A DNA stretch of 41,556 nt from Bacteroidota bacterium. Its GTDB lineage: Bacteria > Bacteroidota > Ignavibacteria > Ignavibacteriales > Ignavibacteriaceae. The stretch spans positions 1 to 41,556 of the forward strand of contig JAKBMG010000014.1 in assembly GCA_021831685.1 (NCBI GenBank), written 5' to 3'. This document shows positions 34,378 through 41,337 of the stretch, one piece after another (the first letter of the stretch is position 1; each line of letters opens with the position of its first letter). The notes under the pieces were generated by a model. The model worked only from the letters and a program-made list of their open reading frames with translations. It did no database searches and had not been told where the DNA came from. A program made the translations under genes and the position numbers.

Positions 34378-35445
34378 CTACTTTGCTCCAAGTACAAAAT
34401 AGGTATTTATTTCACCGTTACCGATAACATCAATCTTTTCTTTAAATTTAAAATTGAAAGATTCTTTAACTAGATTAAATGTTGCTTCGGTGACTGTAAG
34501 CATCCCCGGCAGGCTATAACGCTCCATTAAGTTTGCGATGTTTACCGTGTTTCCCCAAACATCGTAGGTAAATTTTTTCAATCCAACGACTCCTGCTACA
34601 ACATTTCCGGAATGGGCACCGGCTCGCATTATCCATTTATATTCAGAAATTTTATTTCGTTCGTTTAGATAACCTTGCATTTCAAGGGCGGCACAAATTA
34701 TATTTTTCGCATGATCTACATTTTCATTTGGCAAACCGCAGGCAACCATATATGAATCGCCCATAGTTTTTAACTTTTCAAGACGGTAGCTTTCCAAAAT
34801 CGTATCAAAACTTTTGAAAATATCATTAAGTTCGTTAACCAGAATCTGCGGCGGCATTTTAGAAACCATTGAAGTAAAGCCCTGGAAATCTGTAAAGAGA
34901 AGAGTAACATTTGAAAACTCACGAGGTATTATAAAGCCATTTTCCTTTAATTCCTTGACAATTTCGGCAGGAAATATATTGTGAAGAAGTTCATTTGATT
35001 TATTCCTTTCTTCTTCTAATTCAAGCGTACGCTCTTTAAGTTGACGGCTTATTTTATGTTTATACAAAGCTATTTCGATTGCTGAATGCAGAGTTCGCTC
35101 GTCAAACGGCTTTAACACATATCCAAATGGCTCTGTAATTTTTGCGCGATGAAGAGTTTCATCATCCGCAAGGGCGGTTAAGTAAACAACTGGAATATCA
35201 AGGTTTTTCATAATTATTTCTGCCGCTTCTATTCCGGTCATATCGCCGTGAAGAATAATGTCCATAAGGACCAAATCAGGTTTTAGTTCTTCGGACTTTT
35301 TAATTATATCAATCCCGCTTCTTGACGAACCAAGAACAATGTAACCCAATTTTTGAAGAGTTCTACTAATATCAATTGAAATTATATTTTCGTCCTCGGC
35401 AATAAGAATTTTTGCATCTGTAACCATTGAATCCTCTTTACTCAA
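34378..35445 (-). CDS. Response regulator receiver fused to a class III nucleotide cyclase
   Basis: This 355-aa protein has a receiver domain at residues 12-128 (E17, D18; phospho-acceptor D62; T90; K112), a coiled coil (about 130-155) and a class III cyclase domain (about 176-350). In the cyclase both metal aspartates (D186 in FTDFQGF, D230 in KTMGDSYM), the purine-reading K226 and D295, and N302 are present. These suggest ATP as substrate. The arginine that stabilises the transition state in VNxAxRME is Leu306 here (NIANLME). It may therefore be weakly active or a nucleotide sensor. It is divergent from the triple-receiver kinase-like gene, a likely partner in phospho-signalling. Confidence 0.88.
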   Translation of the reverse strand: MSKEDSMVTDAKILIAEDENIISIDISRTLQKLGYIVLGSSRSGIDIIKKSEELKPDLVLMDIILHGDMTGIEAAEIIMKNLDIPVVYLTALADDETLHRAKITEPFGYVLKPFDERTLHSAIEIALYKHKISRQLKERTLELEEERNKSNELLHNIFPAEIVKELKENGFIIPREFSNVTLLFTDFQGFTSMVSKMPPQILVNELNDIFKSFDTILESYRLEKLKTMGDSYMVACGLPNENVDHAKNIICAALEMQGYLNERNKISEYKWIMRAGAHSGNVVAGVVGLKKFTYDVWGNTVNIANLMERYSLPGMLTVTEATFNLVKESFNFKFKEKIDVIGNGEINTYFVLGAK

Positions 35446-35675: not shown

Positions 35676-38033
35676 ATGCAAAATTCTAAGACCGAACTTC
35701 TTAACAAAATTAGCAACCTGCTAAATCTTGCTGCCACGTCTTCGCCTGATTTGCCAAATGAGATATGCAGATTTTTAGTAGATGAGTATGAATTACAAGC
35801 TGTTGCTTTATTTAAATTAGATGAACAAAATAAGCTTACTCTAAAGGGTAAATCAAATGATGTAAAAAAATCATATCCTTTAAATTCTGTTTACGAGTGT
35901 AAGTCATGCAATCTTCTCAAGGAACAGAATAAAAACATTTCGTTAAATACTCAGAATAATTGTGAAATCCAGGTATCGGAATATGTCATTTACGAATCTT
36001 GCTTGATCATAAAATCTTCTGTTAAGAATGTAGCTTTGTTAAAACTAGCTAAAAAAACAGCCTTTACCCCCGCGGATAAAGAAAATTTTGAGGCAGTTGC
36101 TAATGCTCTTTCAAGTATTATTAATCTTTGGTCTGATAATGATAAGTCCGCTACTGTTTCAACTGCCGAACTTATTTCTGAAATTGCCCAGGAGCTTAGA
36201 ACCCCAACCAACAGCATCATGGGATTTGCTTCGCTTTTATATGAAGATAAATTAACTCCGACTCAAACCGAATATGTATCCACTCTAAAAGAAAGCGCCT
36301 TCAACCTTCTTGCCGTCATAAATGATTTAATAGACCTCGCAAAAGTTGATACCGGCACATGCAAACTTGCTTTGTCTAACACCAACATTAAAGTTTTTGT
36401 TGATGAAGTCATTAAAATATTCAACGAGAAAATCAATAAAAATAAAATTGAGTTTATTGTAAACATAGATAAAACCTTGCCGGAGACGATGAGACTCGAC
36501 GTGCAAAAACTTCGGTTTATTTTTTCAAATATTATAACTTATGCCTTGAGATTAACAGAGAAAGGAAAGATATCTATTTCAGTTTCTGCTGGAAACCTAA
36601 ATAAAGTAAACTTTAAAATCAGCGATACAAGCTCGGGCATTTCAGCTAATAAACTGAAAGACATTTTTAAACCTTTTTCGCTTTTCGAACTTGGAAATCC
36701 TAAGATAGGCAACACGACAGGATTAAGCCTCTTGCTTGCAAAAAGATATATTGAACTTTTAAATGGCGAGATAGAGGTAACAAGTTCCTTGGGAAAAGGA
36801 ACTACATACAGCTTTAGCATCAACTCCGAAAATATTTCAACAATTGAAGCACAAATAAGTACTTTACCTAAACCCGGTAAGAAGAATAAAGTTTTGGTTG
36901 TGGAAGATGATTACGCCACCTCAAAGCTTTTAAGTAACTATTTAAATAAATGGGGATACGAACCAACAATCGTTAACTCAGCGGAGCAAGCTCTAAAAAT
37001 AATTGACAAAGAAATTTTCCTTGCCGTACTAATGGATATTATTTTACCGGATGCTAACGGTTTTGAATTGCTTAAAAGAATCCGGGAACATAAGAACGCA
37101 AAAAATACTCCGGTTATAGTGTGCTCGGTTGAAGCTGAACAGCAGAAGGCTTTTTTGATGGGAGCCGTCGAATATTTTGTAAAGCCGATTCAATATAAGT
37201 TTCTCATCGAAGTTTTAACAAGTTACAGACTTAAAAAAGATTCCAATATTTTAATTGTTGATGATGATGTCCCAACTTTAAGTTTGATAAAAGAAGCTAT
37301 TGAACAAGCCGGATTCAATGCAATTGCAGAGTCACATTCTTCCCGCGTGATGAATATGATTGAAGCAATAAACCTTGATCTTGCCATCATAGACCTTGAT
37401 ATGCCTGAAATTAACGGCTTCGACCTGATAAAGCAAATTAAATCCAAACCAAAATTTTCAAATCTGCCTATTGTAATTTATACTGGTAAAGAAAATTACC
37501 AGGAGGATATTAAAAAAATTGACGGAATGTTTTCCGATCTACTTAAGAAAAGCAGTACAAATATTGAGCAGCTTTCCGATACTATAAATCAGATGATTAA
37601 CCGCTTTGATGAGCCACCTACACCTGAAGAAATTGCAAGCAAAAAGGATCCTATCAAAATTCTTTTAGTTGAAGATTACAAACATTCTCAGATTATTGTT
37701 ACCAGACTTCTTAAGAAAAACAATTTTGAATCTATTGTAGTTGTAGAAAACGGTGCAGAAGCAGTTGAAGCTGTGCAAAAGCAAAAATTTAATCTGATAC
37801 TTATGGATATGCAGATGCCGGTGATGAATGGTTTTGAAGCTACTGAAAAAATACGGCAGATGAAAGAATATAAAGAAATACCCATCATTGCTTTAACTGC
37901 TTTTGCTATGAAAGGTGACAGGGAAAAATGCTTAGAATCCGGCGCAACGGATTATATCCCTAAACCAATTGATAGCCAGGAATTTATAGAGAAAGTTAAA
38001 TATTATACCCTTAACAAAGTTAATTCTGTTTAA
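35676..38033 (+). CDS. Hybrid histidine-kinase-like protein with three receivers and a glutamine in place of the phospho-histidine
   Basis: This 785-aa protein has an N-terminal GAF-like domain (about 8-150), a HisKA-like helix pair (about 160-230), an ATPase-like domain (about 270-385) and three receiver domains (about 406-522, 526-642, 660-780). The H-box reads IAQELRTPTNSI with Gln172 where the phospho-acceptor His should be. The N-box second Asn is Tyr289, the first Gly of the DxGxG box is Ser319 and GLGL reads GLSL (Ser351). All three receivers keep acidic pairs and phospho-Asp (D454, D573, D711). It is therefore probably a pseudokinase scaffold or phosphate sink fed by another kinase (inference). 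No membrane segment is seen, so it should be cytoplasmic. It is divergent from the receiver-cyclase gene. Confidence 0.9.
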   Translation: MQNSKTELLNKISNLLNLAATSSPDLPNEICRFLVDEYELQAVALFKLDEQNKLTLKGKSNDVKKSYPLNSVYECKSCNLLKEQNKNISLNTQNNCEIQVSEYVIYESCLIIKSSVKNVALLKLAKKTAFTPADKENFEAVANALSSIINLWSDNDKSATVSTAELISEIAQELRTPTNSIMGFASLLYEDKLTPTQTEYVSTLKESAFNLLAVINDLIDLAKVDTGTCKLALSNTNIKVFVDEVIKIFNEKINKNKIEFIVNIDKTLPETMRLDVQKLRFIFSNIITYALRLTEKGKISISVSAGNLNKVNFKISDTSSGISANKLKDIFKPFSLFELGNPKIGNTTGLSLLLAKRYIELLNGEIEVTSSLGKGTTYSFSINSENISTIEAQISTLPKPGKKNKVLVVEDDYATSKLLSNYLNKWGYEPTIVNSAEQALKIIDKEIFLAVLMDIILPDANGFELLKRIREHKNAKNTPVIVCSVEAEQQKAFLMGAVEYFVKPIQYKFLIEVLTSYRLKKDSNILIVDDDVPTLSLIKEAIEQAGFNAIAESHSSRVMNMIEAINLDLAIIDLDMPEINGFDLIKQIKSKPKFSNLPIVIYTGKENYQEDIKKIDGMFSDLLKKSSTNIEQLSDTINQMINRFDEPPTPEEIASKKDPIKILLVEDYKHSQIIVTRLLKKNNFESIVVVENGAEAVEAVQKQKFNLILMDMQMPVMNGFEATEKIRQMKEYKEIPIIALTAFAMKGDREKCLESGATDYIPKPIDSQEFIEKVKYYTLNKVNSV

Positions 38034-38126: not shown

Positions 38127-39590
38127 ATGATTAGCGAAAAACCAAGAGTCAGATTTGCCCCGAGTCCCACTGGCTATTTGCATGTAGGCGGACTTCGCAC
38201 AGCATTGTATAACTATCTGTTTGCAAAACATAACGACGGAAAATTTGTTCTTAGAATTGAAGATACCGACCGGAACCGGTATGTTGAAGGAGCCGTTGAA
38301 AATTTGATTGAATCATTGAAATGGTGTGGACTTGAATACGACGAAGGACCAAATATCGGCGGTCAATTTGGTCCGTACATGCAATCTCAGAGGCTTGACC
38401 TTTACAAGAAATATGCAGCCGATCTTATTGCAAACGGCAAAGCATATTATTGCTTCTGTACACCCGAACGGCTTGAAAAACTGCGCGAAGAACAACAGCG
38501 TCAAAAACTTCCCCAGGCAAAATATGATAAGCATTGCCTTCATTTGAATAAAGAAGAAATCGAAGAAAATCTCTCAAAAGGTGTACCCCACGTGGTACGC
38601 TTAGATGTCGAAGCCAATAAAAAAATAATCTTTAATGATGTCGTACGAGGACAGGTAGAGTTCAATAGCAGTAATGTTGATGATCAGGTCCTGATTAAAA
38701 GCGATGGTTATCCTACATATCACCTTGCCAATGTGGTTGATGATCATTTAATGAAAATTACGCATGTTATTCGCGGTGAGGAATGGCTTTCATCTACGCC
38801 AAAACATGTATTACTATATGACTTCTTTGACTGGGAAAAACCCATATTTGCACATCTTCCGTTATTGCTTAATCCTGACCGTTCGAAACTAAGCAAACGT
38901 CAGGGCGATGTTGCAGTTGAAGATTACCGCATAAAAGGATTTTTGAAAGAAGCACTAATTAATTTTGTTGCTTTACTTGGATGGAACGCCGGAGACGATA
39001 AAGAATTTTATTACATGAATGAACTCATAGAAAATTTTTCACTCGAAAGGGTAAATAAATCAGGTGCTGTTTTTGATTTAGAAAAACTAAATTGGCTTAA
39101 TGCAGAGCATCTCCGCAAAAAACCGAACACTGACATTTTGCAAATGATCAAAGAGGAAGGTAAAAAATTAAATATCGACTATCAGAATTTTAGTGACGAT
39201 TATTTATTAAGAATTATTTCAGTAATGAAAGAACGGGTTTCTTTTGTAAATGAGTATTTCACTAAAAGTTTCTTTTTCTTTGAAGCTCCCCAAACTTATG
39301 AGCAAGCTGCGATAGAGAAAAACTGGAAATCAGAAACTCCTGAACAACTCAATAAATTACACAATGCTTTTGCCTCTCTTGCAAATCCGTTAAAGGAAGA
39401 TTACGAAAATACTTTGGCGAAAGTTGCTGAGGAATTAAATATCGGCAAAGGGAAATTGATTCACCCATTGCGATTAGCTGTATCAGGCATGAGTGCAGGC
39501 CCCGGTGTATTTGATATCCTATTTATCCTTGGCAAAGACGAAACCATTAAGAGGATTAGAGCAGCAATCGATAAAATAGGAAAGTCTTAA
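38127..39590 (+). CDS. gltX: Glutamyl-tRNA synthetase
   Basis: This 487-aa class I synthetase charges tRNA-Glu, and in organisms with the amidotransferase route may also charge tRNA-Gln. The HIGH-type motif is SPTGYLHVGG (residues about 13-22) and the KMSKS counterpart is KLSKRQGD. The DTDRNR segment typical of GluRS is present. Length is normal. It starts 93 bp after the kinase-like gene and probably has its own promoter. Confidence 0.96.
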   Translation: MISEKPRVRFAPSPTGYLHVGGLRTALYNYLFAKHNDGKFVLRIEDTDRNRYVEGAVENLIESLKWCGLEYDEGPNIGGQFGPYMQSQRLDLYKKYAADLIANGKAYYCFCTPERLEKLREEQQRQKLPQAKYDKHCLHLNKEEIEENLSKGVPHVVRLDVEANKKIIFNDVVRGQVEFNSSNVDDQVLIKSDGYPTYHLANVVDDHLMKITHVIRGEEWLSSTPKHVLLYDFFDWEKPIFAHLPLLLNPDRSKLSKRQGDVAVEDYRIKGFLKEALINFVALLGWNAGDDKEFYYMNELIENFSLERVNKSGAVFDLEKLNWLNAEHLRKKPNTDILQMIKEEGKKLNIDYQNFSDDYLLRIISVMKERVSFVNEYFTKSFFFFEAPQTYEQAAIEKNWKSETPEQLNKLHNAFASLANPLKEDYENTLAKVAEELNIGKGKLIHPLRLAVSGMSAGPGVFDILFILGKDETIKRIRAAIDKIGKS

Positions 39591-39740: not shown

Positions 39741-40421
39741 TTATTCCGGTAATTGATATCCGCTAAGTTTTTTTTGGTGCGCTATAATTTCTGCTTCAAC
39801 TAAAAAAATAACATCCTCGGAAATATTAGTAGCATGGTCTGCAAGGCGTTCAATCTGCCGGGAAAGCACTATTAAATGCGCACAGGCTTCGGTAATCTCA
39901 GGGTTGGATTGAATTTTTTCTACAAGCTGTTTAAATATTTTTTTATTATAATCATCAACAATATCGTCTTTTTTCCAGATTGTTTTTGCTAATTCGCTAT
40001 CGCAGTTTATAAATGAAGTAATAGCATCCTTAACCATTTCACGAGTAATTTTAGCCATATCCGGAAGATCTGTTTGAACTATTATATCACGAAAGTTTTC
40101 AGTTTTTTTAACACGCTGAGCTATGTTAACCGCAATATCACCGCAGCGCTCAAGCTGGCTGTCAATTTTAATTGCCGTCAATATAAAACGAAGATCGGTA
40201 GCAACTGGTTGATATAGTGCAAGCAAGTTTTCACATTGAGCCATAATTAGATTATCGTAAGCATCTACTTCCCTATCTCTTTGTTTGATTTCCTTAAACA
40301 GTCTGACTCCGGAGTCTTCCATATCCTTAAAACTATTTTCAACTTGATCGTCGACAATCGACGCCATTTTGTTTATGGTAGTTTTTAGTTCTTCAAGCTC
40401 TTTTTCAAAATGTCTTTCCAT
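39741..40421 (-). CDS. phoU: Phosphate-signalling accessory protein PhoU
   Basis: This 226-aa protein is all-helical with two PhoU three-helix repeats; the metal-contact stretch of repeat 1 (AVNIAQRVKKTE, preceded by IDSQLERCGDI) and of repeat 2 (RQIERLADHATNISED) are clear. PhoU links the Pst transporter to PhoR and dampens phosphate uptake and Pho-regulon output. It is downstream of pstB on the same strand, the usual order. Confidence 0.96.
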   Translation of the reverse strand: MERHFEKELEELKTTINKMASIVDDQVENSFKDMEDSGVRLFKEIKQRDREVDAYDNLIMAQCENLLALYQPVATDLRFILTAIKIDSQLERCGDIAVNIAQRVKKTENFRDIIVQTDLPDMAKITREMVKDAITSFINCDSELAKTIWKKDDIVDDYNKKIFKQLVEKIQSNPEITEACAHLIVLSRQIERLADHATNISEDVIFLVEAEIIAHQKKLSGYQLPE

Positions 40422-40527
40422 CTTTTCCTGATATCCTTTAACTTAAAAATCTTATCCTTACACTTAAACTTGAACTTAAACTCGAAAGAATAGGTTCAAT
40501 TGTAAGTTCACGAGTATTGTAAATATT

Positions 40528-41337
40528 TTAGCCAAACCTGCCTGTAATATAGTCTTCAGTTTGTTTTTTAGCCGGAGCGACGAACATTTTTTTGGTCTCT
40601 GAATATTCGATTAACTCGCCCATATAGAAAAATGTTGTAAAGTCACTCACCCGAGCCGCTTGCTGCATATTGTGAGTAACAATAACTATTGTATAATCTT
40701 TTTTCAATTCAAAAATAAGCTCTTCAATTTTTGTAGTAGAAAGAGGATCAAGCGCGCTTGCAGGCTCATCCATTAAAATTACTTCGGGATTTATTGCAAT
40801 TGTTCGCGCAATACATAAGCGTTGCTGCTGCCCCCCGGAGATGTCTGCGCCCGATTTGTGCAATATATCTTTTACTTCATCCCAAAGAGCGGCCTGTATT
40901 AAGCTTTTTTCTACAATTTCAGCAAGTGCTTTTTTATTATGAAAACCGTTTAATTTTAATCCAGCTACAACATTATTGAAAATTGACATTGTAGGGAATG
41001 GATTTGGCTTTTGAAAAACCATACCGATTTTTCTTCTCAAATATACGGGATCTTGTTTCATAATATCCTCACCGTCAAATATAATACTGCCGGTCATTGT
41101 TCCCCCAACGACCTCATGCATTCGGTTTAGGCTTCGTAAAAAAGTTGATTTACCGCAGCCTGATGGGCCAATAATGGCAAGAACCCTTTTTTCTGGAATC
41201 GTCATAGAAATATTTTTAAGAACTTTCGTCTTCCCAAAATAAGCAGAAAGGTCTTTCACCGAAATCTTTATTGCATCATGCTTATGATGAGTAGCTTTTG
41301 ACGTTATTTCGTTATTTGTCTGAGCGTTAAATACCAT
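40528..41337 (-). CDS. pstB: Phosphate ABC transporter ATP-binding protein
   Basis: This 269-aa ATPase drives high-affinity phosphate import with PstA, PstC and PstS. Walker A is GPSGCGKST, the signature ISGGQQQR and Walker [14 protein letters not shown]. The N-terminal ~22 residues before [11 protein letters not shown] are an extension, so a later start is possible, though none is clearly better. It begins 5 bp after the pstA stop. Confidence 0.97.

Follow-up and report, generated by a model that had tools for sequence, protein, structure and literature searches.

RetS of Pseudomonas aeruginosa is a hybrid kinase-like protein with a degenerate ATPase domain that, as described in PMC5992135, cannot autophosphorylate and has kept its receivers. 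It takes up phosphoryl groups from GacS on a receiver, and it both dephosphorylates the GacS receiver and blocks GacS autophosphorylation, T428 being needed for the phosphatase action on GacS (PMC5992135). DivL of Caulobacter crescentus, in which the acceptor His is replaced and the ATP site is poor but the DHp fold is kept, is reported to read DivK-P without kinase or phosphatase activity (PMC4211667). A third comparison is offered by a modified sensor kinase, the Chloroplast Sensor Kinase (CSK), and Hik2 of Synechocystis, in which a conserved cysteine and a redox-active Fe-S cluster are described for the GAF domain at the N-terminus (PMC6949291). In addition, fused receivers are described as phosphate sinks in CheA3 (PMC3868531), and kinase-dead ChrS is described as forming heterodimers with HrrS (PMC9491836). 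Loss of the acceptor His is uncommon in the figures of one survey, in which 722 of 76,471 HisKA domains (about 0.9%) lack it (PMC12632262).

The window analyzed here, that is, the whole stretch of 41,556 nucleotides of contig JAKBMG010000014.1 from a member of the Ignavibacteriaceae, encodes a protein that invites comparison with these systems. The following features were assigned (basis in parentheses):

35676..38033, forward strand: predicted pseudo-histidine kinase of 785 amino acids, with GAF, degraded HisKA/HATPase_c and three receivers (ORF list, Pfam, residue check)
35676..36140, forward strand: N-terminal GAF-fold sensor, residues 1-155, with Cys31, 75, 78, 96 and 109 (structure model, alignment)
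36168..36356, forward strand: HisKA/DHp domain, residues 165-227, with the phosphatase-type E/DxxT/N motif kept at 173-176 (Pfam, alignment)
36189..36191, forward strand: Gln172 codon, replacing the phospho-accepting His (alignment)
36498..36824, forward strand: degraded HATPase_c domain, residues 275-383 (Pfam, alignment)
36540..36542, forward strand: Tyr289, replacing the N-box Asn (alignment)
36630..36632, forward strand: Ser319 in DxGxG (DTSSG) (alignment)
36726..36728, forward strand: Ser351 in GLGL (GLSL) (alignment)
36891..37223, forward strand: receiver 1, residues 406-516, with Asp454 (Pfam, alignment)
37248..37595, forward strand: receiver 2, residues 525-640, with Asp573 and Lys625 (Pfam, alignment)
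37659..37997, forward strand: receiver 3, residues 662-774, with Asp711; its first helix does not vary across 69 aligned rows (Pfam, alignment)
38127..39590, forward strand: gltX (glutamyl-tRNA synthetase), 93 nt downstream of the pseudokinase gene (ORF list, Pfam)
34378..35445, reverse strand: receiver-class III cyclase, divergent neighbor in an arrangement that is not conserved (Pfam, locus comparison)

An earlier note on this DNA had placed Gln172, Tyr289, Ser319 and Ser351 at four kinase positions, and all four read as claimed in the 785-residue open reading frame, in the contexts AQELRTP, NIITYALRLT, DTSSG and TTGLSL. Pfam recognized HisKA (53.6 bits), HATPase_c (61.6 bits) and three Response_reg stretches, all above cut-off. 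Compared with a competent hybrid histidine kinase, the protein has the domains but neither the acceptor His nor, in its ATP site, the N, G1 and G2 motifs. Considered as a pseudo-histidine kinase, it appears to retain the fold, since Foldseek neighbors of the full-length model include the RetS kinase region, DivL (4q20) and GacS, and the kinase residues are gone by sequence. The pTM of that model is 0.42, so the arrangement of the domains cannot be read from it. None of the 25 NCBIfam models listed, out of 143, reached its cut-off. At the N-terminus, Pfam listed no GAF family, and a comparison of the GAF profile with PDB sequences gave nothing at E <= 1; the AlphaFold2 model of residues 1-158 (mean pLDDT 89.4), when compared with GAF-containing structures, gave a best Z of 14.3 (rmsd 3.1 A over 144 residues), and single GAF domains gave Z values of 12.7-13.8.

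The gene was found in 12 of the 13 genomes of the genus (E <= 1e-100) and, as a single copy, in 72 of the 80 genomes of the family (E <= 1e-80), one of which has it split over two contigs. Wider draws at E <= 1e-80 gave matches in 40 of the 395 genomes taken from the phylum and in 63 of the 294 taken from the class, all of which belong to three families of one order, except for five genomes of a related class-level family that we label f59. Judged by these matches, this is a family of orthologous, predicted pseudo-histidine kinases, normally one per genome, that extends through the order Ignavibacteriales. The named strain Stygiobacter electus 09-Me carries an orthologue (L258), and the 80 best of the 581 matches obtained against named genome records include two distant ones, from Flavobacterium and Bryobacteraceae (26-29%). 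Among the matches listed from the open-licence PMC literature, we found no three-receiver pseudo-histidine kinase of Ignavibacteria.

Eight family genomes yielded no match at E <= 1e-80, which need not reflect true loss of the gene, and a query made of receivers 2 and 3 gave only 31-36% matches, in two of the eight. In four of these genomes gltX is also missing (E <= 1e-100), and in G045, G038 and G074 the contig ends next to gltX, on the flank expected to carry the pseudokinase (the position in G074 being deduced from locus length). G077 has 695 nt upstream of gltX, holding another gene, and loss of the pseudokinase gene is possible there. The gltX contig of G077 (L301) carries an upstream fragment that we named by eye as a MoxR-like ATPase; from its Arg-rich frames the contig looks very G+C-rich and may be a binning contaminant.

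The alignment used for the counts below comprises 101 orthologues, 67 from the 72 matched family genomes and 34 from the 36 matched order genomes outside the family; G026, G029, G035, G056, G068, G161 and G378 were omitted as fragmentary or split. Alignments A1 and A2 hold 69 and 57 of the 101 rows. L012 was omitted from the tree of the receiver half, and both L012 and L019 from the domain identities; these, like the motif and change counts, use 99 rows.

The f59 kinases (L304-L308) have HisKA, HATPase and three receivers in the same order as the pseudokinase, to which they are 33-35% identical, but their kinase motifs are intact in five of five. On a tree of the kinase core and receivers, built by a quick method, they form the sister group (support 89), and a long stem (1.59 changes per column) leads to the pseudokinase family. 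Because this sister group is intact and the stem is long, the stem of the order is where the kinase most likely started to decay. The one f59 kinase that was scanned, L308, differs further in having a PAS input and a C-terminal HPt domain (24.7 bits, against a cut-off of 24.6).

Residue 172 is occupied by 14 different residues across the orthologues (H 27, N 25, Q 23, S 8, P 4, L 3, D 2, T 2 and six others once each, with one gap among the 101 rows). Of the 100 orthologues whose sequence extends across this residue, 73 lack the acceptor His, which, for a single order-wide gene, contrasts with the frequency of about 0.9% in the survey cited above. Conservation of the Gln in relatives, a matter raised by the earlier note, proved to be local: all four substitutions of the window protein recur in L039 (98% identical) and in L040 (87%), but within the genus Gln172 is restricted to these three, and His is found in all eight other genus rows that cover the site (L019 does not). 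Orthologues with an intact His, which the earlier note had regarded as adverse to its reading, thus do exist and show that Gln is not conserved; however, those eight rows have the N-box Asn replaced (by T, S or Y) and have lost the first Gly of DxGxG. A sequencing or frame error, which it had likewise foreseen as an objection, was ruled out, as L039 and L040 share the substitutions and the gene is under purifying selection. We take Gln172, on this alignment, to be an incidental, local change within a drifting site.

No orthologue among the 101 has H172, N289, D317, G319, G321 and G351 all intact. The N-box Asn is found in 23 of the 101; His occurs together with it in three orthologues and together with DxGxG in another count of three, and 44 of the 99 countable orthologues keep none of the four motifs. 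G319 is the sole scored residue missing from L050. The protein is very probably catalytically dead in this genome, to judge from its residues, and the pseudokinase reading, including the loss of autophosphorylation for which the earlier note had argued, is likely right and applies more broadly than first claimed. On a tree made from the receiver half alone, residue 172 undergoes 26 letter changes, more than 70% of HisKA sites, as against 10 at the adjoining E173 and seven at R175. At least six changes between His and non-His are needed on the same tree, a fewest-changes count that cannot separate loss of His from its regain. Mutual exclusion of His and the N-box Asn was considered and set aside, as the distribution (both, 3; His only, 23; Asn only, 20; neither, 53) is not significant (Fisher p 0.11, three independent pairs).

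This decay, which is order-wide and graded, can be compared with an intact paralogue in the same genomes. Among paralogues in this genome the best match over the full length is L002, a kinase with HAMP and GAF domains and, like the pseudokinase, three receivers; in the L002-type paralogue every scored catalytic position is invariant in 30 of 30 rows. These rows are the 30 best-scoring loci of the family search, L002 included, and are nearer kin than the whole family; their mean identity is 0.85 for HisKA, the highest of their domains, 0.67 for HATPase, and 0.71, 0.73 and 0.68 for the receivers. The corresponding values for the pseudokinase are 0.51, 0.36 and 0.72/0.69/0.83 over 99 rows, and 0.73, 0.57 and 0.83/0.75/0.89 over 24 rows drawn mostly from the genomes that supplied the control. 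The order of conservation is therefore reversed, HisKA being highest in the paralogue and the receivers highest in the pseudokinase. In some genera the L002 orthologues seem shorter (about 790-950 aa), with the match ending at residue ~730-760.

All three receivers of the window protein have the acidic pair, the Asp, the Thr/Ser and the Lys (D411/D412/D454/S484/K503, D530/D531/D573/T603/K625 and E666/D667/D711/T741/K763), and eight of these 15 residues are invariant in the 101 rows; Lys625 of receiver 2, for example, is kept in 101 of 101. Substitutions affect D411 (one Asn), D454 (seven Asn), S484 (two Ala, one Thr) and D711 (one Val), and the other departures are gaps in the contig-cut rows L097 and L124. 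In the 69-row alignment, no position of the first helix of receiver 3 (666-681) varies. As this helix is a usual docking surface for kinases and HPt proteins, a constant partner appears likely. The five GAF cysteines, C31, C75, C78, C96 and C109, are all present in 83 of 101 orthologues. The earlier note's statement that three phosphorylatable receivers and a GAF sensor are kept thus holds for the catalytic residues and the modelled GAF fold, and it holds order-wide.

The Asp454Asn change in receiver 1 occurs in seven of the 101 rows (L098-L102, L107 and L126). The full-length active three-receiver paralogue is absent from six of these seven genomes as against nine of the 94 others, an association that amounts to three events, for which a sign test cannot reach significance. 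Within the family, absence means that nothing matched at E <= 1e-150; among the order genomes, G610, G088, G619 and G145 were scored as lacking the paralogue, and G149 (1.3e-128) and G130 (8.4e-148), which have short versions, as having it. Some of the genomes scored as lacking it are incomplete (e.g., G027, 76%). We regard this association as a weak hint concerning the donor kinase.

With its kinase machinery worn and its three receivers almost unchanged, the protein probably takes phosphate from another kinase. The best overall explanation, which we consider reasonably likely, is a pseudo-histidine kinase of the RetS/DivL type; that its receivers are phosphorylated in trans, taken as a separate proposition, we hold with somewhat greater assurance. 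The ancestor would have been an active kinase with three receivers that subsequently lost autophosphorylation. The receivers would be phosphorylated by a separate histidine kinase or HPt protein, the GAF domain would alter the pairing of the DHp helices, and the DHp core would pair with or dock a partner and might dephosphorylate it, so that phosphoryl groups would be drained or removed, as RetS does with GacS. A RetS-like sink or phosphatase in particular is our leading guess, offered tentatively by analogy, and the "phosphate sink or scaffold" of the earlier note is accordingly named here as a possible role. The phosphatase-type E/DxxT/N motif is kept in 84 of 101 orthologues, including 58 of the 73 without His; RetS T428 is presumably the equivalent of its last position, four residues after the His. 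Retention of the motif is by itself ambiguous, as folding or docking could also preserve it. RetS differs from the window protein in having two receivers and a periplasmic ligand-binding domain, as described in PMC5992135, where the protein reported here has three receivers and an N-terminal GAF domain, and in the window family the His site drifts.

The Fe-S GAF domain of CSK, which is likewise N-terminal and has a conserved cysteine, suggests by analogy that the cysteine-bearing GAF domain may be a redox or metal sensor. The cysteine pattern is different, however, the Synechocystis form is described as an active kinase, and metal binding here is putative. CSK and Hik2 are not known to carry receivers. 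A wider scheme, which we advance more speculatively still than the RetS-like role, is that of a near-universal hub of Ignavibacteriales in which the flow is reversed: the receivers would collect foreign phosphoryl groups, the GAF domain would add a redox or metal input, and the worn core would be the output, by phosphatase action or contact. In this scheme the ATP site would have been damaged on the stem of the order, after which nothing would have held the acceptor-His site constant; a return of His, with no recovery of kinase function, may even have occurred.

The strongest competitor, although we consider it unlikely, is a reversed sensor or scaffold like DivL, in which the DHp core would read a phosphorylated receiver, its own or foreign, and signal by contact, without phosphatase or sink chemistry. 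DivL, a Foldseek neighbor of the model as noted above, has Tyr at the His site and weak nucleotide binding, and is described as binding DivK-P at its docking surface (PMC4211667). The DHp positions E173, R175, N179, I181 and G183 are retained in 87-98 of the 101 orthologues, as a conserved contact surface of this kind would lead one to expect. However, three intact receivers suggest uptake of phosphoryl groups rather than reading alone. DivL is not known to carry receivers, and Tyr is usual at its acceptor-His site, where 14 residues are found in the present family.

It is improbable that the kinase region is merely decaying, used for dimerization or not at all, in a protein that would then be a three-receiver, response-regulator-like hub with a GAF input. 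HATPase is the least conserved region after the GAF domain and linker by identity (0.36), and after the GAF domain by pN/pS. Moreover, nearly half of the orthologues lack all four motifs, and in L129, which has Thr at residue 172, HisKA scores 20.8 bits, below the Pfam cut-off of 26.9. Nevertheless, the HATPase region is at least 85% filled in 101 of 101 rows, as is HisKA except in the contig-cut L019, and N179 and G364 are retained in 98 of 101. Pooled pN/pS over 23 close pairs, near neighbors picked by hand, is 0.24 for GAF, 0.084 for HisKA, 0.147 for HATPase, and 0.040, 0.066 and 0.033 for the receivers. As the kinase-region values are far below 1, the region, while relaxed, is still under selection, and this is no pseudogene.

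An atypical but active kinase with an altered ATP site, at least in the lineages bearing His, is very improbable. His is present in 27 of the 101 orthologues and accompanies an intact GxG more often than expected (GxG is intact in 17 of the 26 rows that have His and in 19 of the 73 that do not; Fisher p 0.0007 with kinship ignored, only three independent pairs); the N-box Asn is likewise associated with GxG (p 0.007 with kinship ignored, and too few independent pairs for sign tests). The ATP-site Asp and glycines, although often lost, change more slowly than most HATPase sites (D317, G319, G321, G349 and G351 have change ranks of 0.09-0.32), unlike N289 (0.62). The slow glycines, together with the co-occurrence of His and GxG, make some residual nucleotide function possible in the His-bearing lineages. 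Against kinase activity, every orthologue lacks at least one residue that all 30 paralogue rows keep, and the window protein lacks the acceptor His itself.

Least credible is a phosphorelay in which this protein and the divergent cyclase, with four receivers between them, would control cAMP or cGMP, the undescribed module proposed in the earlier note: the pair occurs in the window and seven other loci (L039, L040, L049, L053, L056, L060 and L073) but was not seen in 87 of the 95 whose upstream DNA reaches 1.5 kb or more, and a receiver-cyclase homologue (E <= 1e-60) is present in 27 of 80 family genomes, as compared with 72 of 80 for the pseudokinase. With six loci having less upstream DNA, this is eight of all 101, and the gene pair was rejected as a conserved feature. 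In nine of the 12 genus genomes with the pseudokinase, the cyclase is on another contig. The description of the cyclase as equally altered was overstated, in that Leu (L306) occupies the position of the transition-state Arg, the one loss among the positions checked, but both metal Asp residues, the Lys and the adenine-site Asp are present, these roles being as we presume them to be; among 30 cyclase rows that position is Arg in 10, with the metal-binding and base-binding residues largely retained. A longer cyclase protein lies upstream in L051 (280 bits), tandem receiver-cyclase genes precede the pseudokinase in L049, L053 and L056, and in several genus members a pair of adjacent genes of this kind occurs at another place in the genome.

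On the downstream side, gltX, an essential gene of protein synthesis, comes after the pseudokinase gene in the same orientation in 89 of the 97 loci with downstream room, within 500 nt in 83 and within 2 kb in the other six; it was not found in the 3.3-5.5 kb fetched downstream of L048, L086, L095, L096, L125, L130, L132 and L133, and the contig-cut L093, L097, L124 and L136 (807 nt or less downstream, without gltX) were left out of the count. This link may reflect shared expression only; we see no reason for a signaling role. Beyond gltX, at 39741-41337 on the reverse strand, lie what we take, by eye, to be PhoU-like and PstB-like phosphate genes; a PstB-like cluster is near the pseudokinase in only five loci.

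The orthologues form a natural series in which to ask which features of a kinase core outlast catalysis and what pseudo-histidine kinases do. With respect to possible partners, Hpt matches were obtained in 14 of the 14 genomes tried, nine of which have one in an open reading frame of 239-249 aa. Such a frame (e.g., with the match at G000:C38:33130-33330) may encode a stand-alone phosphotransfer protein.
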